Made by a program: the position numbers and the translations under genes
Notes under the pieces: model-generated
Databases searched by the model: none
Told to the model about the DNA's origin: nothing
What the model saw: only the letters and a program-made list of their open reading frames with translations
Part shown: positions 234 to 53,904 of the stretch, in pieces
Numbering within the stretch: the first letter of the stretch is position 1
Layout: each line of letters starts with the position of its first letter
NCBI GenBank assembly: GCA_021205695.1
Contig: JAJPXB010000062.1
Coordinates: forward strand, 1-53,904
DNA: 53,904 nt
From: Clostridiales bacterium
GTDB taxonomy: Bacteria; Bacillota; Clostridia; Oscillospirales; Oscillospiraceae
Direction: 5' to 3'

Positions 234-306
234 GCACCTTTAGCTCAGTTGGTAGAGCACCTGACTCTTAATCAGGGTGTCCAGGGTTCGAGTCCCTGAA
301 GGTGTA
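234..306 (+). tRNA. tRNA-Lys (CTT)
   Basis: A full cloverleaf can be drawn. The acceptor stem GCACCTT pairs with AAGGTGT, the anticodon loop is CTCTTAA, the T arm is CAGGG/CCCTG around TTCGAGT, and the discriminator is A. CCA is not encoded. It is the first gene of the array and lies before the 5S. Confidence 0.95.
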
Positions 307-352
307 GTAGACATCTGAGGGCGTATGAAGAGTACCCAAGGATGAGCGAACC

Positions 353-424
353 GGCCCGTTGGTCAAGTGGTTAAGACAGCGGCCTCTCACGCCGTTAACA
401 TCGGTTCAAATCCGGTACGGGTCA
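353..424 (+). tRNA. tRNA-Glu (CTC)
   Basis: The acceptor GGCCCGT pairs with ACGGGTC. The anticodon loop CTCTCAC lies between GCGGC and GCCGT, giving anticodon CTC. The sequence follows the usual Firmicutes tRNA-Glu, but with CTC in place of the common TTC. The discriminator is A and no CCA is encoded. Confidence 0.93.
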
Positions 425-512
425 TTAAAAATACTTGACAAGCGAGAGCGGGTTGAGTATAATAGCATCTGTTGAAAAGAGAGGGGAACTTTCTTTTCAG
501 GGGAAGCAAGAG

Positions 513-630
<118 letters not shown>

Positions 631-655
631 GAAAGGTCTTATGACCTTTCCATAT

Positions 656-728
656 TCCTCAATAGCTCAGTCGGTAGAGCACGCGGCTGTTAACCGCGGT
701 GTCGTAGGTTCGAGTCCTACTTGGGGAG
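656..728 (+). tRNA. tRNA-Asn (GTT)
   Basis: The acceptor TCCTCAA pairs with TTGGGGA. The anticodon stem CGCGG/CCGCG encloses CTGTTAA, giving GTT. The discriminator is G and CCA is not encoded. Confidence 0.95.
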
Positions 729-786
729 CTTTGGAGATTGGGCCGCCACGCGGTGTGCATGGCGGCACTTTTTCTGAAAAGGTTAT

Positions 787-863
787 GGGCCTTTAGCTCA
801 GTTGGTTAGAGCATCCGGCTCATAACCGGACGGTCCACGGTTCGAGCCCGTGAAGGCCCACCA
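787..863 (+). tRNA. tRNA with CAT anticodon (elongator Met, or Ile2 if lysidine-modified)
   Basis: The acceptor GGGCCTT pairs with AAGGCCC. The anticodon loop CTCATAA sits in a TCCGG/CCGGA stem. The 3' CCA (861-863) is encoded, unlike in the other tRNAs here. CAT can mean elongator Met or the AUA-reading Ile tRNA made by TilS. It is not an initiator, because the acceptor is fully paired and the anticodon stem lacks three G-C pairs next to the loop. The body resembles clostridial tRNAs of both kinds, so identity is left open. Confidence 0.9.
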
Positions 864-901
864 TGTTTTTGATATGGGGAAGCTGATGGACCTCCTGATA
901 T

Positions 902-974
902 AGGGGTATAGCTCAGCTGGTAGAGCAGCGGTCTCCAAAACCGCGTGCCGAGGGTTCGAATCCTTCTGCCCCTG
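902..974 (+). tRNA. tRNA-Trp (CCA)
   Basis: The acceptor AGGGGTA pairs with TGCCCCT. The anticodon stem GCGGT/ACCGC encloses CTCCAAA. The discriminator is G. Confidence 0.95.
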
Positions 975-1011
975 TTTCGCTGTAACCGAGAGAGATCTCG
1001 TTTACATATAT

Positions 1012-1085
1012 GGCCCGGTAGTTCAGTTGGTTAGAACGCCAGCCTGTCACGCTGGAGGTCGTCGGTTCGAGTCCGATCCGGGTCG
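1012..1085 (+). tRNA. tRNA-Asp (GTC)
   Basis: The acceptor GGCCCGG pairs with CCGGGTC. The anticodon stem CCAGC/GCTGG encloses CTGTCAC. The discriminator is G. Confidence 0.95.
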
Positions 1086-1118
1086 CTCGCTTTCCCTATA
1101 GGGGAGAAAAGTGAATAT

Positions 1119-1191
<73 letters not shown>

Positions 1192-46153: not shown

Positions 46154-47737
46154 ATGCTCCAAGTCAGCAATCTCCGTCTCCCCCTGGACGCAGACCGGGA
46201 GGCGCTGGAACGCCGGACCGCCATGGCTCTGCACATCGGCCGGGGGGATATTCAGGAGCTCCAGCTGGTAAAGCAGTCCATCGACGCCCGGCGCAAAAGC
46301 GATCTGCACATGGTCTATACCGTCAACGTCCGGGTGGCAGACCAGGAAGGGGTGCTGCGCAGGGCCGGGCCCGGCGTGCGCAGGCTGGAGCGCACGCCCT
46401 ACCGGTTCCCGGAGACCGGCTCCTATACCGGTCCCCGGCCTGTGGTGGTGGGCATGGGACCTGCCGGATTGTTTGCCGCTCTGTTCCTCGCCCGGGCGGG
46501 CATCCCTCCCGTGGTGGTAGAACGGGGCCGCCCGGTGGAGCGCCGTCAGGCGGACGTGGAGCGGTTCTGGGCCACCGGAGCGCTTGATCCGCACTCTAAC
46601 GTCCAGTTCGGCGAGGGGGGCGCGGGGACCTTCTCTGACGGCAAGCTGACCACCGGTACCCATGACCCCCGCATCTCCGCCGTACTGGACACCTTTGTGG
46701 AGATGGGCGCTCCCGCGGACGTGGCCTGGTCGTTCCGGCCCCATGTGGGGACAGACGTGCTCCGCCGGGTGGTGCGCCGTCTCCGGGAGGAGCTGCTCCG
46801 GCTGGGCTGCGACATCCGGTTTGAGACTACCCTGGTGGGCCTGGAGCACGAGGGCGGAACGCTGACCGCCGCGGTTTTGGAGACAGAGCGGGGCCGGGAG
46901 CTGCTTCCCGCCTCCCGGCTGGTCCTGGCCCCGGGACACTCCGCCCGGGACACCTTCACCATGCTGGCGGAGCTGGGCCTCGCCATGGAGCAGAAGCCCT
47001 TCGCCATCGGTGTGCGCATCGAGCACAGTCAGCAGGCGATCAGCCGAGCCCAATACGGCCCCGCCTGGGAGCGCCTGCCTCCCAGCGACTATCATCTCTC
47101 CTGCCACCTCCCCAGTGGGCGGAGCGCCTTCTCCTTCTGCGTCTGTCCCGGCGGGACGGTGGTGGCCTCCGCCTCGGAGCCGGGGCGGCTGGTGACCAAC
47201 GGCATGAGCTGTCGGGCCAGAGACGGGGAGAACATCAACGGCGGCTTTCTGGTGGGGGTCGGCCCCGGGGACTATCCCGGCGCGGATCCCCTGGCGGGCG
47301 TCCGGTTTCAGGAGCAGTGGGAGGAGGCGGCCTTTCGCCTGGGCGGGGGCGGTTTCCGCGCCCCGGCTCAGCTGACAGGGGATTTTTTGCAGCGGCGTCC
47401 GTCTGTGGGCGGCGGGGCCGTCCGGCCCACCTACCGGCCGGGGGTGACCTGGACGGACGTGGGGCTGTGTCTGCCGGATTATGTGACGGAGACCCTTCGG
47501 GACGCCCTGCCTCTGCTGGATCGAAAGCTCCACGGCTTTGCCGCCCCGGAGGCGGTGCTCACCGGCATCGAGAGCCGGTCGTCCTCTCCCCTGCGGGTGC
47601 TCCGGGATGCAGATTTTCAGTCCAGTCTCCGGGGCGTCTATCCCTGCGGAGAGGGCTGCGGCTATGCCGGTGGCATCGTCAGTGCCGCCGTGGACGGCAT
47701 CCGTGTCGCCGAGGCAGTGGCACGTCAGGGGCTCTGA
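46154..47737 (+). CDS. FAD-dependent oxidoreductase (COG2509-like)
   Basis: A 527-aa flavoprotein. A 90-residue N-terminal domain precedes the FAD Rossmann motif VVVGMGPAGLFAALFLARAG (about 98-117). GEGGAGTFSDGKL and a C-terminal GEGCGYAGGIVSAAVDGIR are hallmarks of this conserved but poorly characterised dehydrogenase group. The start at 46154 was chosen because the conserved frame begins there; the ribosome binding site is weak. It is the last gene of the GC-rich chromosomal backbone before the AT-richer mobile region. Confidence 0.88.
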   Translation: MLQVSNLRLPLDADREALERRTAMALHIGRGDIQELQLVKQSIDARRKSDLHMVYTVNVRVADQEGVLRRAGPGVRRLERTPYRFPETGSYTGPRPVVVGMGPAGLFAALFLARAGIPPVVVERGRPVERRQADVERFWATGALDPHSNVQFGEGGAGTFSDGKLTTGTHDPRISAVLDTFVEMGAPADVAWSFRPHVGTDVLRRVVRRLREELLRLGCDIRFETTLVGLEHEGGTLTAAVLETERGRELLPASRLVLAPGHSARDTFTMLAELGLAMEQKPFAIGVRIEHSQQAISRAQYGPAWERLPPSDYHLSCHLPSGRSAFSFCVCPGGTVVASASEPGRLVTNGMSCRARDGENINGGFLVGVGPGDYPGADPLAGVRFQEQWEEAAFRLGGGGFRAPAQLTGDFLQRRPSVGGGAVRPTYRPGVTWTDVGLCLPDYVTETLRDALPLLDRKLHGFAAPEAVLTGIESRSSSPLRVLRDADFQSSLRGVYPCGEGCGYAGGIVSAAVDGIRVAEAVARQGL

Positions 47738-48274
47738 ATATTTCGCGGTATGAAGCGACGGTTTTTCCCCATCGTTTGCGGCACGCCGCTGTTTCCGCTA
47801 CGGTCCCCTTGTATCCTCAGCCAACAGGGATGCTCTCACCCCTATTGGATGACCCAGAGCCAGGGAATTTCACCCTTCTGGACACCCTGCTATTTTTGAC
47901 TGCAACAATCCCAACTCCAAAGATTTGTTGGCCTCATGTTGTCAAAAACAAAAATCCGAAAATCATCCACACGGCAGGTATGGATAATTTTCGGATTTTT
48001 ATATATGAAAATTGCTGTGGATGTGCAATCGACATTCTCACACAAAAATGACTAAAAATTCAGAGAAAAAGCACCGGATGCAACGCGGCTATATTCTATC
48101 ACCTTGATGAAAGCAAATGCTTACTTTATTTGAAGATCGAATAATGTAAGAATTGTGTTGAGCAAAGAGTCACCTCTTTCTTCTTAGAGAGGAGCAAAAT
48201 CGGATTTGTCGTACTCTATAGATGCAACAGGTGTTTCTACAAGCTCACATCCACGACTCTCAGAGTCAAAGTAA
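47738..48274. other. 537-bp junction between chromosome and mobile region
   Basis: No supported gene. Base composition falls from GC-rich to AT-rich across this stretch. It contains the terminator at 47951-48000. If the serine recombinase to the right drove integration, one attachment junction could lie here or further left, but no core site can be named. Confidence 0.5.
47951..48000. terminator. Bidirectional terminator after the FAD oxidoreductase
   Basis: The arms AAAATCCGAAAATCATCC and GGATAATTTTCGGATTTT pair with one mismatch, with A- and T-rich flanks that suit either direction. Confidence 0.75.
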
Positions 48275-48472
48275 TTAAATGCTCCTTACAGGATATTCAA
48301 ATGCCTTGGTACAGAAGCAGAGTTTGCTTCCACATTTTTTACATGTATACTCGCCAGTGAAATCAGATTCGATTTCGTCGCCCATATTTCTTTCATAAGC
48401 GAAGGATTCTTCCTCTAAAGAATCTACGGCAATCTCATGTTGCGCACCACAATCATCACAGCGAAAAATCAT
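48275..48472 (-). CDS. Small zinc-ribbon protein, 65 aa
   Basis: Two Cys pairs, CDDC (5-8) and CKKC (44-47), plus a late CFC, would bind one zinc. The acidic middle carries SLEEESFAYERNMGDEIES. It is the last gene of the leftward recombinase-cargo run, 131 bp after the Nudix gene. AT-richer than the backbone. Function unknown. Confidence 0.7.
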   Translation of the reverse strand: MIFRCDDCGAQHEIAVDSLEEESFAYERNMGDEIESDFTGEYTCKKCGSKLCFCTKAFEYPVRSI

Positions 48473-48603
48473 TTTCTTAGTTTTTCTCCGGTTTGTGCAA
48501 TAATGATGTATTTACATGTTTTTTGAAATTCTCACCAAGCTGTAACTGACGACATTGTCACCGTAATCTTTGTCGACAGGTTCATATCCGGAGCAGACCT
48601 TAA

Positions 48604-49005
48604 TTATTCCGATGTGTCGCGCAATTGCTTTCCAATTTCATCAACGATGGTAATGTCAGCAGGCAGCCATCGAACACTGTGCAGCATGTCTTTTGTCAGC
48701 CAACGAGCAGCTTGGGCCTCCTTTAGCACGAGGCTGCCGCTAATGACCTTACACCAAAAACAATCCATCGATAGGTGGAATGTTGGATAGTCATACTCGA
48801 TGGTCCCAATAAGACTACCTATTTCGATATCTGTATCTAATTCTTCTTTGATCTCACGAATAAGCGCCTGCTGTGGCGTTTCGTCGGATTCAATTTTTCC
48901 ACCTGGAAACTCCCACTGACCTTTATAGTCACCATAACCACGCGCAGTGGCAAATATCTTGTCTCCGTTGCGGATGACCGCAGCGACAACTTTAACGACC
49001 TTCAT
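48604..49005 (-). CDS. Nudix hydrolase (MutT/NudG-like nucleoside triphosphate pyrophosphatase)
   Basis: A 133-aa hydrolase that probably cleaves a nucleoside triphosphate to the monophosphate. The Nudix box is complete except one position: G36 x5 E42 x7 REIKEELD (the canonical Gly near its end is Asp57). GQWEFPGGK is the usual lead-in. Overall pattern (short, AAVIRNGDKIFATARGYGDYKGQWEFPGG) resembles E. coli NudG, which prefers CTP, 5-methyl-dCTP and oxidised dNTPs. The start at 49005 follows AGGAAG and lies 13 bp after the SRA gene, so the two are one operon. Confidence 0.88.
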   Translation of the reverse strand: MKVVKVVAAVIRNGDKIFATARGYGDYKGQWEFPGGKIESDETPQQALIREIKEELDTDIEIGSLIGTIEYDYPTFHLSMDCFWCKVISGSLVLKEAQAARWLTKDMLHSVRWLPADITIVDEIGKQLRDTSE

Positions 49006-49018
49006 ATCGCTTCCTGGC

Positions 49019-49783
49019 TTAAACAAACTCAATCAGCTTGTTTTTTATGCAAACTTCATAACCAAGCTTCTTTTCGCCTACGGAGTTGAAAGAGACAACG
49101 ATGATGGTATCAGTAACTTCGGTAATTGTTCCTTCGCCATAAGCCTTATGTTTCACTTGTTTACCAACAATCTCAGGTGGAACAACGACAGCAGACCTCG
49201 GAGGCACAGGAGGGGCGACAGAAATCGGCAGTGCCGGCTTTTCAGCCACTTTTTTGCCGGATTTTTTCTGTTCTGCAATCATCCTCATATACTCTTCGTC
49301 GACATTTTTTCCACGTGTCTTGAAGTCATCCATGTCTTTAAACACAAACATGGTCGGCTTCTCAACATCATTATCAGGCACAGGGCGAATAGGGAACATC
49401 CAAACCTTTCGGTCAATTCCGTCCTCACCAGGTTGAATATCAGTATAGGGCTTGTCCACAAGTTCAATCCTGCCACAGTATATGTATTCTCCGGCATTCA
49501 TCACCTCAAACAGATGAATGTCAACGCCATTTCTGCCACATGCTGCCAACGTCGCGTTCTGAGCCCAGTTAATATCCTGATCACCTGTTTTTCCCATACC
49601 GGTAAAATGGAGCACACCACCAATCCATTTATCATGGTAAATCCCCTTCGTATAGTCGGAAACAATTACCAGGGTGTTTGTCGTTTTGGACCGACGCATA
49701 CCACCCATATTTCCGCATTTAAAGATTTCTACTACATTGCTATTTTTTATGATTTGACCAATTTCCAAACCAGGATCAAACAT
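49019..49783 (-). CDS. ScoMcrA-like SRA domain protein with Tudor-like C terminus
   Basis: A 254-aa protein. Residues about 20-135 match the SRA domain of ScoMcrA-type restriction enzymes: GNMGGMRRSKTTNTLVIVSD, LHFTGMGKTGDQD, AQNATLA, VDIHLFEVMNAGEYIYCGRIEL and KVWMFPIR. SRA domains flip out and bind modified cytosine. A charged, proline-rich linker (about 150-203) leads to a 50-residue UvrD/PcrA-type Tudor-like domain (KQVKHKAYGEGTITEV to the end). No HNH or other nuclease motif is present, unlike in ScoMcrA. It is cotranscribed with the Nudix hydrolase and follows the serine recombinase by 54 bp. Domain call is firm, role inferred. Confidence 0.83.
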   Translation of the reverse strand: MFDPGLEIGQIIKNSNVVEIFKCGNMGGMRRSKTTNTLVIVSDYTKGIYHDKWIGGVLHFTGMGKTGDQDINWAQNATLAACGRNGVDIHLFEVMNAGEYIYCGRIELVDKPYTDIQPGEDGIDRKVWMFPIRPVPDNDVEKPTMFVFKDMDDFKTRGKNVDEEYMRMIAEQKKSGKKVAEKPALPISVAPPVPPRSAVVVPPEIVGKQVKHKAYGEGTITEVTDTIIVVSFNSVGEKKLGYEVCIKNKLIEFV

Positions 49784-49837
49784 ATATCACCACTTAAACC
49801 TTTCTATTTCTTATATGAGCCGCATACTTTCTTCCGG

Positions 49838-51793
49838 TTAAATCATCCCAAAATACCGCAGCGCTTCCGTAATCGCCACCTCTTTCTCCGGCGGACACTG
49901 CGGCTGCCTTGCATTTTCAGATTTCGGCTTATTATAATTTCCCCGTTCAATAATCCCATACTTCTGCTTAATCTGCGCAATGTACAGAGGGGACACCGAC
50001 AATCCTGTATGCTCTTTCACATAATCCTTGATCTGGCCGTAGGTGGCGCCTTTCTGAAATTCGGACATATCCATGTCCTCCAGGGAGAACTCCACTCGCA
50101 CTTTCCTGGAGTTGATTTCTCCCTTGGAAAGCTGAACAACCGTCCCAATATGCTCATCACAGTCCAAACTCAAATTCATATCATCTTCAATGATTGGCAG
50201 CTTGAATTTAATAGATTTCAGCCATTGTCCATTGGGCTGGCGTTCTTCGTATATCTGCACTTCTTCAATCAGCGCCTCCACAAGCTGCCGTTTTTCCGTC
50301 TCGTTCATGACGGCATACAGCTTGTCAAAATAGATCAGCACCTTGTAAATGTTATCGCCGGTGAGCTTGTCCGCTTCGATGACCTGCTTCTTTGCCCTCG
50401 CCTCGATCAGCTTAGATTCCAGTTCCTCAATCTTGTCATACATCCGGTAGAGCCGGTCATCCAGATCGGCCTTACGCCTGATATAGTGCCGGTCGTCCGG
50501 GTCCAGGGAGTCAATCTCCTCCATCAGCTTCGCCTTTGTGGAGTAGCTCTGGCGAAGCTGCTTTTCAAAGCCGGCAATCTCCTGGTCGATGGCGGAGGTA
50601 TCCACCTGCATATGGATCTTCTGCTGTATCATGGCGGCGAATTTAGGATTGCTGACCAGCTTTGCGATGACCTCCGCCACAGCATCGTCCAGCAGCTCCT
50701 CGTGCACCTGTTTTTTGTAGTCACACTTGTGACCATCGATCATCTTGCGGTGCTTACAGCCGTAGTAATAGAAGTCTTTGTATTTCGTCCCGTCCTTCTT
50801 GTGCTTGATGCTCTTGTTGCCGTACATACCGGCTCCGCAGACGGGGCATTTCACAATGCCGGACAGAAGGTGGATGCGCTCGTTCTTCGGCTTGTTGACG
50901 TGTTCGTACTTCCTGGCCTGAGCGATCAGCTTCACCTGGGCTTCCTGCCAGACCTCCTCTGACACGATAGGCTCGTGCAGCCCGTCCACCAGCAGATAAT
51001 CGTCCTGTTCCACCAAGTGATAGTCGTTTCGGGTGCCGTGTACCTTCTCCGTCTTTCTGCGTCCATAGGCGATCTTTCCGCAGTAGACCGGGTTTTTCAG
51101 GATCATCCGAACCAGATGGGAGTCAAAGAGAGGATTCTTCCCATTTTGGCGGGGGATCTTGCGGATCCCGTGGTCTGCCAGATATTTGGAGACGCCGTTT
51201 GCACCCAGGTCTGTATGGGCGTACTGGTCGTAAATGACCCGAATGGCAGGGGCTTCTTCTTCATTGATCTCCAGCTTGCCGTCTACCAGACGATAGCCGT
51301 AGGGCGCAAAGCCCCCATTCCACCGTCCCTCTCTGGCTTTCTGGATGCGGCCCTCCATCGTCTGAACACGGATATTTTCCCGCTCGATCTCTGCGACAGC
51401 CGACAGGACAGAGATCATCAGCTTCCCAGCCTCCTTGGAGGAATCGATACCGTCCTCCACGCAGACCAGGTTGACCCCAAAATCCTGCATGATCTGCAGG
51501 GAGGAGAGAACATCCGCCGCATTCCGCCCAAAGCGGGACAGCTTAAACACCAGGACGAAGGAGACGCCGTCTTTCCCAGACTGGATGTCCTCCATCATCT
51601 GGTTAAACTGGACACGCCCTTCGATGGACTTGCCTGATTTACCTGCATCCTCATATTCGTGGGCGATCTCGTAGTCGTTGAACTCTGCATAGGCTTTCAT
51701 CCGGGCTTTTTGGGCGTCCAGAGAGTAGCCGTCGGTCTGCATGGCGGTGGACACTCTGGTATAGGTATATACTTTGATTCGCTCTTTCCTCAT
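49838..51793 (-). CDS. Large serine recombinase (site-specific integrase)
   Basis: A 651-aa serine recombinase that integrates or excises the mobile element. The resolvase domain starts TYTRVSTAMQTDGYSLDAQ, with catalytic Ser15 and the Arg-bearing KLSRFGRNAADVL. A recombinase domain (about 160-260), a zinc ribbon (CPVCGAGMYG) and a coiled coil (about 395-475) follow. The last 85 residues (VEFSLEDMDMSEFQKGATYG through QPQCPPEKE) form an extra module that I recall from other clostridial mobile-element proteins. It is cotranscribed with rhuM. Large integrases of this kind usually sit at one end of their element. Confidence 0.93.
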   Translation of the reverse strand: MRKERIKVYTYTRVSTAMQTDGYSLDAQKARMKAYAEFNDYEIAHEYEDAGKSGKSIEGRVQFNQMMEDIQSGKDGVSFVLVFKLSRFGRNAADVLSSLQIMQDFGVNLVCVEDGIDSSKEAGKLMISVLSAVAEIERENIRVQTMEGRIQKAREGRWNGGFAPYGYRLVDGKLEINEEEAPAIRVIYDQYAHTDLGANGVSKYLADHGIRKIPRQNGKNPLFDSHLVRMILKNPVYCGKIAYGRRKTEKVHGTRNDYHLVEQDDYLLVDGLHEPIVSEEVWQEAQVKLIAQARKYEHVNKPKNERIHLLSGIVKCPVCGAGMYGNKSIKHKKDGTKYKDFYYYGCKHRKMIDGHKCDYKKQVHEELLDDAVAEVIAKLVSNPKFAAMIQQKIHMQVDTSAIDQEIAGFEKQLRQSYSTKAKLMEEIDSLDPDDRHYIRRKADLDDRLYRMYDKIEELESKLIEARAKKQVIEADKLTGDNIYKVLIYFDKLYAVMNETEKRQLVEALIEEVQIYEERQPNGQWLKSIKFKLPIIEDDMNLSLDCDEHIGTVVQLSKGEINSRKVRVEFSLEDMDMSEFQKGATYGQIKDYVKEHTGLSVSPLYIAQIKQKYGIIERGNYNKPKSENARQPQCPPEKEVAITEALRYFGMI

Positions 51794-51822
51794 GCTCTGC
51801 CCCTCCCTTTAGGCTGCGCTGC

Positions 51823-52827
51823 CTATTTTTGATCTGTCCGCTGTTCCAACAGCTTGATGGAGTCCAGATAATCCTGTTCCACCTCGCTGAGCGTCCTGGC
51901 CCTGTACTTTTTGTATTCGCTGGTCGCCTTGTCCACGGCCTGCCGGTGGGTGACGCTGCCGTTGCCGATCAGGAGCTGCTCGCCGCTCATGGTGAGGATG
52001 CGGTCCAGATGCTCCGCCCAATCCTTCATGGTCATGACCTGCTCCCGTTCTGCCTGACGCTCCGCAAAGTCCAGGTATCCGGAGACGAGCTGCCCCATCG
52101 CCCGCAGTTCCTTCTCGTCCAGATAATTCTTGGCGACAGTCGCCTCCCGCAGCGTGGGCTGCTTTCCTGCAAAGGTGGTCAGTCCCATAAATTCCTTCTC
52201 GGCGTCCGCTCTGGTGTAGATGACCTCCGCCGCTGTCTGGCCGTGAACGGCATAATGGATCTTGTTCTGTACCTTTTGGAAAAACTGAACAGAGATCTCC
52301 GCTTTCGGGTCGTAGTCAATGCTCGTGGCGTAGATCTCCAGCACCTGGCGGTAAAACACCTTTTCAGAGGCACGGATGTCCCTGATCCGCTCCAGCAGCT
52401 CCTTGAAATAGCCGCCGCCTCCCAGGTTTTTCAGCCGGTCGTCGTCCAGTGCGAAGCCTTTACGCATATATTCTTTGATTAGGCCCGTTGCCCAAATGCG
52501 GAACTGCGTCCCTCGCTGTGACTTTACACGATAGCCCACCGAGATGATCACGTCGAGGTTATAGTAATCGACCTGATAGGTTTTCCCGTCGGCGGCAGTG
52601 TAGGCAAATTTTGCCCAAACTGACTCCTTGACCAGTTCTCCTTCTTTGAAAATATTTCTGACATGTTTACCAATGACACTTTTATCCCGCTGAAATAGCT
52701 CCGCCATCTGGTCTATGGACAGCCAAACGGTATCCCCGTCAAAGGTCGTCTCGATCTTGGTCACGCCGTCTTCCGTCTTGTATATGATGATCTCCGATGG
52801 ATTGTCCCTGTTTTCCTGGGGATTCAT
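51823..52827 (-). CDS. RhuM family protein
   Basis: A 334-aa member of the RhuM (virulence RhuM) family, often found in pathogenicity islands and mobile elements. The typical blocks are visible: VWLSIDQMAELFQRDKSVIGKHVRNIFKEGEL, YYNLDVIISVGYRVKSQRGTQFRIWA and YAVHGQTAAEVIY. The N-terminal half looks like a DNA-binding ORF6N/KilA-type or winged helix. The biochemical role is not established. It starts after GAGGTG and ends 29 bp before the recombinase gene. Confidence 0.9.
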   Translation of the reverse strand: MNPQENRDNPSEIIIYKTEDGVTKIETTFDGDTVWLSIDQMAELFQRDKSVIGKHVRNIFKEGELVKESVWAKFAYTAADGKTYQVDYYNLDVIISVGYRVKSQRGTQFRIWATGLIKEYMRKGFALDDDRLKNLGGGGYFKELLERIRDIRASEKVFYRQVLEIYATSIDYDPKAEISVQFFQKVQNKIHYAVHGQTAAEVIYTRADAEKEFMGLTTFAGKQPTLREATVAKNYLDEKELRAMGQLVSGYLDFAERQAEREQVMTMKDWAEHLDRILTMSGEQLLIGNGSVTHRQAVDKATSEYKKYRARTLSEVEQDYLDSIKLLEQRTDQK

Positions 52828-52853
52828 ATGCTCACCTCATTACTTTCGGGAGT

Positions 52854-52892
52854 CTCAGAAGAGAAATGCGAAGAAAGCATTTCTCTTCTGAG
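52854..52892. repeat. Perfect 16-bp inverted repeat between the small ORF and rhuM
   Basis: CTCAGAAGAGAAATGC (52854-52869) and GCATTTCTCTTCTGAG (52877-52892) are exact reverse complements around GAAGAAA. No T run follows on the minus strand. It could be a terminator with a poor tail, an operator for rhuM, or a transfer-related hairpin. Confidence 0.7.
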
Positions 52893-52921
52893 TTTGGACA
52901 CTCTTTTCACGAATTATTATA

Positions 52922-53107
52922 TCATGCTACTAGCTCGTTTTCAACCTCCAATGCATCGGAATTTGCAGAAAGATCCACAATATTTTCCTTTGCGTGTGGG
53001 CTGCCCGTCATATCCGGGTCAGGCAGGGAATCAATGTCGATCTCCGCTGCGTATTTTGCAATCAAATCTGCCAACAGGTCGGCAAAACTGCTCCACTCAT
53101 CTCTCAT
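52922..53107 (-). CDS. Small acidic protein, 61 aa
   Basis: It begins MRDEWSSFADLLADLIAKYA and ends in an acidic tail with DIDSLPDPDMTG. The start at 53107 overlaps the end of the mob gene (ATG at 53107, mob stop at 53097), so translation is probably coupled. Small coupled ORFs after mob genes are common in mobilizable elements. Function unknown. Confidence 0.65.
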   Translation of the reverse strand: MRDEWSSFADLLADLIAKYAAEIDIDSLPDPDMTGSPHAKENIVDLSANSDALEVENELVA

Positions 53108-53904
53108 TTGTTTTCTCCCTCCTTCCGGCAGGCATCCGAGCATAGGCATTCACGATCTCCGGAGGGATACGATCCAGCAGAGTGACTGCCGCCTCATAAT
53201 CCCGCCGAAGCTTGGCATCTTCCAGCTTCTTGAGGGAGCTCTGCTTGGTGGCATCCGTCAGGGACTGATTCAACTGCGCATTGCTCTTTTTCAGCTTTTT
53301 GTTTTCCCGAACAGTATCCGTAAAGGTGACATTATATTTCTTAAGCTGGGTATCCATCGCCGCTACGCTGGGGATATAGGTGTCCAACAATTTGCAGATC
53401 TCTCCCGCTCTGGATTTAGCATTAAAAGGATTGATGCCGGTGAGCAGCGTCTCCAGATTCTCCCGCTGTTTGGTCAGCTGGGTCATCTCTTTGAACACTC
53501 TCGGCGGGATGTGGTCACGTCCTGTCTGGCTTGCGCTCTCGCCCCGCTCCAGCTCCGGGTACTTCCTGACCATGTGCTTCCAGAACTCATCCTGCCACCA
53601 GGTCAGCTTTTTCTTGTTGCCCACAATGTCCTTGGCAGACAATCTGCCATCCGGCGTCAGCGGGACAAAAGAAAGGTGCATATGGGGCGTTTTCTCGTCC
53701 ATATGCACCACGGCGGATATGATCGTTTTCGGGTCTTGATGCTGCTGAATAAACTCCAGCGCATATTGAAAATAGGCTTTGACCTCTGACTTCTTTTTCC
53801 CTTTGAAGAATTCCGGACTGGCCGTGACCAGCGCCTCCACCACACGAACGCTGTCCTTTCTGGTGCGGCAACCGGCTTCGGCGATCTGGCGTTCTGCCTC
53901 GGCT
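53097..53904 (-). CDS. Plasmid mobilization relaxase, Mob/Pre (MobV) family, 5' partial
   Basis: A DNA-nicking relaxase that starts mobilisation at oriT. The visible part reads from AEAERQIAEAG at the window edge, through VEALVTASPEFFKG and the metal-binding HMDEKTPHMH, to a long coiled coil and the end RMPAGRREKTNER. The N-terminal part and start codon lie beyond the window. A GTG within this part is not the start, because the upstream codons also fit the family. It belongs to the same mobile element as rhuM and the recombinase. Confidence 0.92.
   Translation of the reverse strand, partial: AEAERQIAEAGCRTRKDSVRVVEALVTASPEFFKGKKKSEVKAYFQYALEFIQQHQDPKTIISAVVHMDEKTPHMHLSFVPLTPDGRLSAKDIVGNKKKLTWWQDEFWKHMVRKYPELERGESASQTGRDHIPPRVFKEMTQLTKQRENLETLLTGINPFNAKSRAGEICKLLDTYIPSVAAMDTQLKKYNVTFTDTVRENKKLKKSNAQLNQSLTDATKQSSLKKLEDAKLRRDYEAAVTLLDRIPPEIVNAYARMPAGRREKTNER

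Follow-up and report, generated by a model that had tools for sequence, protein, structure and literature searches.

A nuclease-free SRA-Tudor protein encoded next to a Nudix hydrolase: a candidate modification-dependent restriction module with a precursor-removing enzyme

SRA readers, type IV restriction and hydrolases of 5-substituted dCTPs are all already known. The closest described restriction systems are TagI and ScoMcrA, type IV enzymes in which an SRA domain is joined to an HNH nuclease, and the SauUSI type, homologues of which are mentioned beside MutT homologues in Streptococcus in a figure legend that gives no interpretation in the available part of the paper (PMC7641849). The DUF3427 domain has been predicted to bind modified DNA, by its likeness to SauUSI (PMC7159879), and CMoRE is a GIY-YIG enzyme acting against 5hmC DNA, the available excerpt of its description naming no Nudix protein (PMC12923530). 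On the nucleotide side, hydrolysis of 5-Me-dCTP has been reported for E. coli NudG and for the Bacteroides fragilis enzyme 3GWY (Q5LBB1). The kcat/Km values given for the latter are 4.8e6 M-1 s-1 for 5-Me-dCTP, 4.4e6 M-1 s-1 for 5-hydroxymethyl-dCTP (printed as 5-MeOH-dCTP), 6.7e6 M-1 s-1 for 5-Me-CTP and 8.5e4 M-1 s-1 for 5-OH-dCTP; canonical NTPs were far poorer substrates (PMC5158307). The Tudor domain of PcrA provides a further point of comparison: mutation of H681, W684, K712 or L714 severely reduces the binding of PcrA to RNA polymerase (PMC5397179), and the domain also binds UvrB, via a helicase interaction motif (PMC8318588).

Layout of the locus and domains of the SRA-Tudor protein

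The window, that is, the whole stretch of 53,904 nucleotides analyzed here, is one entire contig (C62) of a 2.24-Mb draft genome. The locus under study comprises the following features.

48275..48472, minus strand: zinc-ribbon protein of 65 aa, 131 bp past the Nudix gene and on the same strand
48604..49005, minus strand: Nudix hydrolase of 133 aa, PADLOC candidate PDC-S07, nearest solved relative 3GWY
49006..49018, minus strand: gap of 13 bp between the SRA-Tudor and Nudix genes
49019..49783, minus strand: SRA-Tudor protein of 254 aa, with a Tudor domain of the UvrD/PcrA type
49838..51793, minus strand: large serine recombinase of 651 aa, 54 bp upstream of the SRA gene
52827-51823, minus strand: RhuM-family gene adjoining the recombinase, PADLOC candidate PDC-S05 (5.9e-191)
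upstream of the SRA gene and reaching the contig end: Mob_Pre relaxase

The arrangement described in a first-pass annotation of this DNA, an SRA domain with a UvrD/PcrA-type Tudor tail 13 bp from a Nudix gene, was confirmed, and an alternative TTG start at 49032 would make the two genes overlap. Terminal repeats of a mobile element were limited to short imperfect ones within 47700-53904, a region that stops with the contig at 53904 and so does not show the right end of the element. Homologues of the recombinase were found within 5 kb of the SRA gene at 7 of 34 SRA-Tudor loci and 2 of 37 SRA-HNH loci (sample described below); at L052, a recombinase 52% identical to that of the window precedes the SRA gene by 250 bp. 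A relative of the RhuM-family gene is located about 5 kb from the SRA-Nudix pair of L059, and a fragment overlaps the start of an SRA remnant in L065. At the left contig end there is a cluster of seven tRNA genes (window 234-1191, plus strand). The zinc-ribbon gene, also listed in the annotation beside the pair, was found by tblastn (E 1e-4) in 0 of 86 related SRA loci; it is therefore probably outside the module, and we rejected it as a third component.

The 254-aa protein is made up of an SRA domain (residues 1-142), two helices, a disordered linker (177-199) and the Tudor domain (about 204-254). The SRA fold is predicted by the structure model. The Pfam family SAD_SRA gave no match to the window protein and only 18.8 to 26.3 bits for four relatives, against a curated cut-off of 30.7, so the protein is called SRA by its fold and its pocket only. 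When compared with the cytosine-reading pocket of TagI (Asp58, Tyr67, Thr68 and Tyr55), three of the four positions are kept, and D51, T61 and an aromatic residue at position 60 (Y/F) are each present in 49 of 49 aligned rows; the position matching Tyr55 is isoleucine or leucine in 44 of the 49. Neither Pfam nor the structure model revealed an HNH or any other nuclease in the window protein, including its C-terminal part, as the annotation had held. A phmmer search of PDB sequences with the SRA protein and with its Tudor part gave no significant match, nor did the profile of A4, and among phage records the window protein matched, weakly, only two records of a single archaeal virus.

Numbering the Tudor tail by transfer of the PcrA residues through motif spacing, the counterparts of the PcrA contacts are H212 (29/29 SRA-Tudor rows), phenylalanine or tyrosine at position 215 (29/29, Y215 in the window), K238 (28/29) and leucine or methionine at position 240 (28/29, L240 in the window). 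Judging by this fold and these residues, the tail may dock on UvrB or RNA polymerase.

Recurrence of the SRA-Nudix pair

We collected 86 nonduplicate SRA loci, consisting of the best 80 of 92 confirmed in a genome scan with alignment A1 plus six from other searches. A Nudix gene is located within 400 bp on the same strand at 37 of them, and the neighborhood thus recurs in other genomes, as the original idea required. By class, adjacency was found at 15 of 34 SRA-Tudor loci, 20 of 37 SRA-HNH loci, 2 of 14 loci with SRA alone and not at the single locus with a broken SRA gene. The pairing is therefore equally common with SRA-HNH nucleases, and the lack of a nuclease, part of the original description, is not a rule. 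The Nudix gene is downstream in all 15 SRA-Tudor cases (three of them broken or remnants: L035, L046, and L048), while at the SRA-HNH loci it comes before the SRA gene in 10 cases and after it in 10 (one of the 20, L072, being partial). At five further loci it is 1.1 to 3.1 kb away, and none was found beyond 3.5 kb in the 480,531 bases covered. The available flanks of the other 44 loci, some of them at contig ends, contain no Nudix gene; this applies to 16 of 34 SRA-Tudor loci (2 of the 16 with less than 600 bp of downstream sequence) and to 15 of 37 SRA-HNH loci. A strict partnership of Nudix with every SRA gene was rejected on these grounds.

Control loci from the same order, with flanks of up to 1.5 kb, had no Nudix gene either at HsdS (0/30) or at cytosine-C5 methyltransferases (0/30), and with the same flanks 7 of 17 loci carrying DUF3427, a mark of type IV systems, had one. 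Within 1.5 kb, the count is 39 of 86 SRA loci versus 0 of 60 controls (Fisher 1.5e-11), a comparison in which rows are not independent and in which the Nudix profile, trained on SRA-linked genes, may undercount other Nudix genes in the controls. In viral contigs, 23 of 34 SRA loci had a Nudix gene, with 4 loci (2 adjacent) shared with the earlier set and about a dozen of one layout, seemingly close relatives. The carriers of adjacent pairs include many Bacillota, the alphaproteobacterium Tsuneonella (L090) and a Desulfomicrobium metagenome bin (L113). In Eubacterium callanderi (L048:8767-9131), the SRA-Tudor gene is open but the Nudix gene next to it is interrupted by a stop codon in frame and by a change of frame, so that the reader may outlive its Nudix partner or the sequence may contain errors. 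This broken gene, together with the many SRA genes lacking a Nudix neighbor, argues against an obligate antidote, and a toxin-antitoxin pair was rejected for the same reasons.

We also considered whether carriers avoid host C5-methyltransferases. The draft genome of the window itself (G000) gave no match to PF00145, but such genes are present in 5 of 9 SRA carriers checked, compared with 43 of 98 genomes of the order. Carriers being no poorer than the order as a whole, host 5mC is not avoided, and this idea was rejected.

The Nudix enzyme and its varied neighbors

The window Nudix matches PF00293 with 65.9 bits (cut-off 21.1) and PADLOC PDC-S07 with an E value of 1.3e-49; it is one of only 4 Nudix genes over the Pfam cut-off in its 2.24-Mb genome, a number that bears on how often such adjacency would arise by chance. 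Of the Nudix box (GX5EX7REUXEEXGU), the G, the E and REIKEE are kept, the last G and U being replaced by D and T. Its nearest solved relative is 3GWY (E 2.5e-25; 54 of 126 aa identical, 43%), which ranks ahead of the MutT and NudG entries and is also first for the profile of the window clade (115 bits, the next entry scoring 102). The activity of 3GWY on 5-Me-dCTP and 5-hydroxymethyl-dCTP is a strong lead for the original proposal of a reader of modified DNA combined with an enzyme that removes the matching nucleotide. For the Nudix genes that precede SRA-HNH genes, the first-ranked entry is the MutT protein 5X1X, as it is for unlinked Nudix genes, and NudG was rejected as their specific relative since unlinked genes give the same top two entries.

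Nudix trees have few columns and many open forks. The window Nudix belongs to a clade (100/98) of 32 rows, 31 of them distinct because L009 and L201 are one gene; 29 of the 31 have an SRA or DUF3427-helicase gene no more than about 3 kb away, in a clade recruited mostly via the SRA search. A second tree places 3GWY (100/88) together with viral-contig Nudix genes that are directly before SRA-HNH and 47 to 51% identical to it, and the larger grouping that contains 3GWY as well as the window Nudix has a support of 94/95, under the mark of the tool. SRA-HNH-linked Nudix genes are scattered over several other positions, which indicates repeated origin or exchange of the pairing.

The PDC-S07 profile has matches in 369 of 394 genomes of the order (E <= 0.001). 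We drew 60 regions around strong matches by score, ignoring their neighbors, leaving out the window and G260 and without exhausting the list. In 12 of them a profile built on three PLD-helicase proteins, two with DUF3427, matched within 1.2 kb (in one case only a 101-aa fragment); one region had an SRA gene, two an SLFN helicase and 45 none of these. Among the rows of the window clade that came from this draw, 5 of 7 are near SRA or DUF3427-helicase genes (4 of 6 without G181, which was already known), the exceptions being L190 and L202. The PDC-S07 profile thus mixes a linked clade with ordinary Nudix genes.

Several loci vary the composition. In L009 the domains are reversed, with Tudor first and SRA last (SAD_SRA 7e-6, under the cut-off), and directly downstream is a Nudix gene 60 to 62% identical to that of the window. 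In a viral contig (L310:5584-6822), a Nudix domain is fused to SRA and HNH in one open frame of 412 aa; the box of this domain is degenerate, reading RHVKEK in place of REUXEE, and the domain may therefore bind nucleotides and not cleave them, which makes the protein a possible nucleotide-sensing restriction enzyme. Between SRA-Tudor and Nudix there is an SLFN-type helicase in L039 and a PLD-ResIII-DUF3427 protein in L062 and L089, and in L058 McrBC adjoins an SRA-Tudor gene with no Nudix. In other viral contigs, a DUF3427 helicase is found beside a Nudix closely related to that of the window (L320), a DUF3427-NOV_C protein, a GIY-YIG protein and a window-like Nudix stand in a row (L321:2440-5044), and the stop of an HsdR-like gene overlaps the start of a window-like Nudix gene (L322:3092-6399); no SRA or DUF3427 match was found in viral contigs L323 and L324. 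Related proteins of 148 to 153 aa are encoded near SRA in L039 (7559-8008), L040 and L041, the L039 copy having no Pfam match.

Proposed function and comparison with known systems

We favor, with moderate confidence, reading the pair as cargo linked to the recombinase and as a restriction module of the modification-dependent (type IV-like) kind, in which the Nudix enzyme removes modified dCTP, probably to keep host DNA from becoming a target. From its fold and pocket residues, the SRA domain would bind 5-methyl- or 5-hydroxymethylcytosine flipped out of the DNA. With a Tudor domain in the place of HNH, counterparts of the polymerase-binding residues of PcrA, and a domain type that in PcrA also binds UvrB, the protein may recruit and not cut: SRA-Tudor would guide enzymes of the host to the modified DNA, either UvrB with the excision nuclease or RNA polymerase. 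The Nudix enzyme, by homology to the enzyme measured, would hydrolyze 5-methyl- and 5-hydroxymethyl-dCTP, so that modified cytosine, such as the cell might salvage from phage DNA it has degraded, would be kept off the host chromosome. Type IV systems lack a methyltransferase to protect their host, and removal of the modified precursor would take over this role as self-protection; starving the phage of its modified dCTP would be a second possible benefit.

Speaking for the module are the adjacency against 0 of 60 controls, the pairs in viral contigs, the small number of Nudix genes in the window's genome, the linkage of the window Nudix clade to SRA or DUF3427-helicase genes, the grouping of 3GWY with SRA-HNH-linked Nudix genes, the two gene orders, the several Nudix lineages, the compositions of L009 and L310, the McrBC, SLFN-helicase and PLD-ResIII-DUF3427 neighbors, the kinetics of 3GWY, the SRA pocket and the Tudor positions. 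Against it stand the loci without Nudix, the broken gene of E. callanderi, the carriers of C5-methyltransferases, the ranking of 5X1X, the 94/95 support and a Nudix profile built from SRA-linked genes, and recruitment by the tail has against it that the tie to UvrB or RNA polymerase comes from fold and residues only, with the Trp of PcrA being F/Y here. A broader version, which we put forward only as a speculation and consider rather unlikely, is that this is a new kind of self-protection in which the precursor is destroyed instead of the own DNA being marked, Nudix having been paired repeatedly with readers of modified cytosine (HNH, PLD-helicase, GIY-YIG neighbor, Tudor), and in which the Tudor version outsources the cut by docking on UvrB or RNA polymerase, turning excision repair on phage DNA.

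The equal speed of 3GWY on 5-hydroxymethyl-dCTP and 5-Me-dCTP (PMC5158307) would also suit an antiviral Nudix that destroys the 5-hydroxymethyl-dCTP of the phage, the SRA protein being a second arm against finished DNA, and viral contigs often carry SRA-HNH-linked Nudix genes (23 of 34 SRA loci, many alike). Such an attack on the precursor pool deserves attention as an unlikely but serious alternative; it accounts less well for a Nudix that travels with readers of modified DNA, 5mC readers included. It seems improbable that the Nudix is an ordinary MutT-type (8-oxo-dGTP) enzyme of general hygiene that hitch-hikes in defense islands. The 45 of 60 PDC-S07 regions without such neighbors and the first rank of MutT for the genes before SRA-HNH agree with hitch-hiking, but control restriction-modification loci have no Nudix within 1.5 kb (0/60), the spacing is tight in both orders, there are a fusion and several Nudix lineages, and a 5-Me/5-hm-dCTPase ranks first for the window clade. 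More doubtful still is that SRA-Tudor is not a defense protein but serves the mobile element as a regulator or an adaptor for repair, flagging modified DNA to RNA polymerase or to excision repair while Nudix acts as damage control: the lack of any nuclease found in SRA-Tudor, the kept PcrA/UvrD-type Tudor positions and the serine recombinase near 7 of 34 SRA-Tudor loci would fit, but the same SRA is joined to an HNH nuclease in sister proteins, and the neighbors of several SRA loci include McrBC, SLFN-helicase or SauUSI-like genes, which points to restriction.

If the restriction module is real, a system that attacks modified DNA would keep the DNA of its host unmodified without a methyltransferase, a class of Nudix enzymes regarded until now as pool cleaners would gain a role in defense, and matched reader-remover pairs for 5mC/5hmC would become available. 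It would also point to a restriction factor that has no nuclease of its own and makes use of the repair or transcription of the host. The new element would be the addition to type IV restriction of an enzyme that removes the matching precursor, in the window in a Tudor form that lacks a nuclease. The initial impression that no such system has been described holds in part: the legend in PMC7641849 and PADLOC PDC-S07 precede it, and nothing else on SRA plus Nudix was found, that legend being the only case among the open-access matches listed, as far as their available text goes. Nuclease-free SRA-Tudor proteins are likewise not described in the available text of the open-access matches listed.

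Among the known relatives, 3GWY and NudG are not linked to restriction in the available part of PMC5158307. The window Nudix fits the PADLOC PDC-S07 profile, which extends to many Nudix genes that have neither SRA nor DUF3427 beside them. The SauUSI type (PLD, helicase, DUF3427) is a single large nuclease-helicase, whereas in L062 and L089 such a protein is an extra gene. The C-terminal Tudor domain of PcrA/UvrD has the same fold as that of the window, where the four polymerase-binding residues have counterparts (Trp becoming Phe/Tyr and Leu becoming Leu/Met), but it sits on a helicase, and the window Tudor sits on an SRA protein without one. No Nudix partner is mentioned in the available excerpts of the papers on TagI and on the ScoMcrA screen, and the first wall tyrosine of TagI is isoleucine in the window protein. 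Finally, TagI and ScoMcrA carry an HNH nuclease where the window protein carries its Tudor tail instead.
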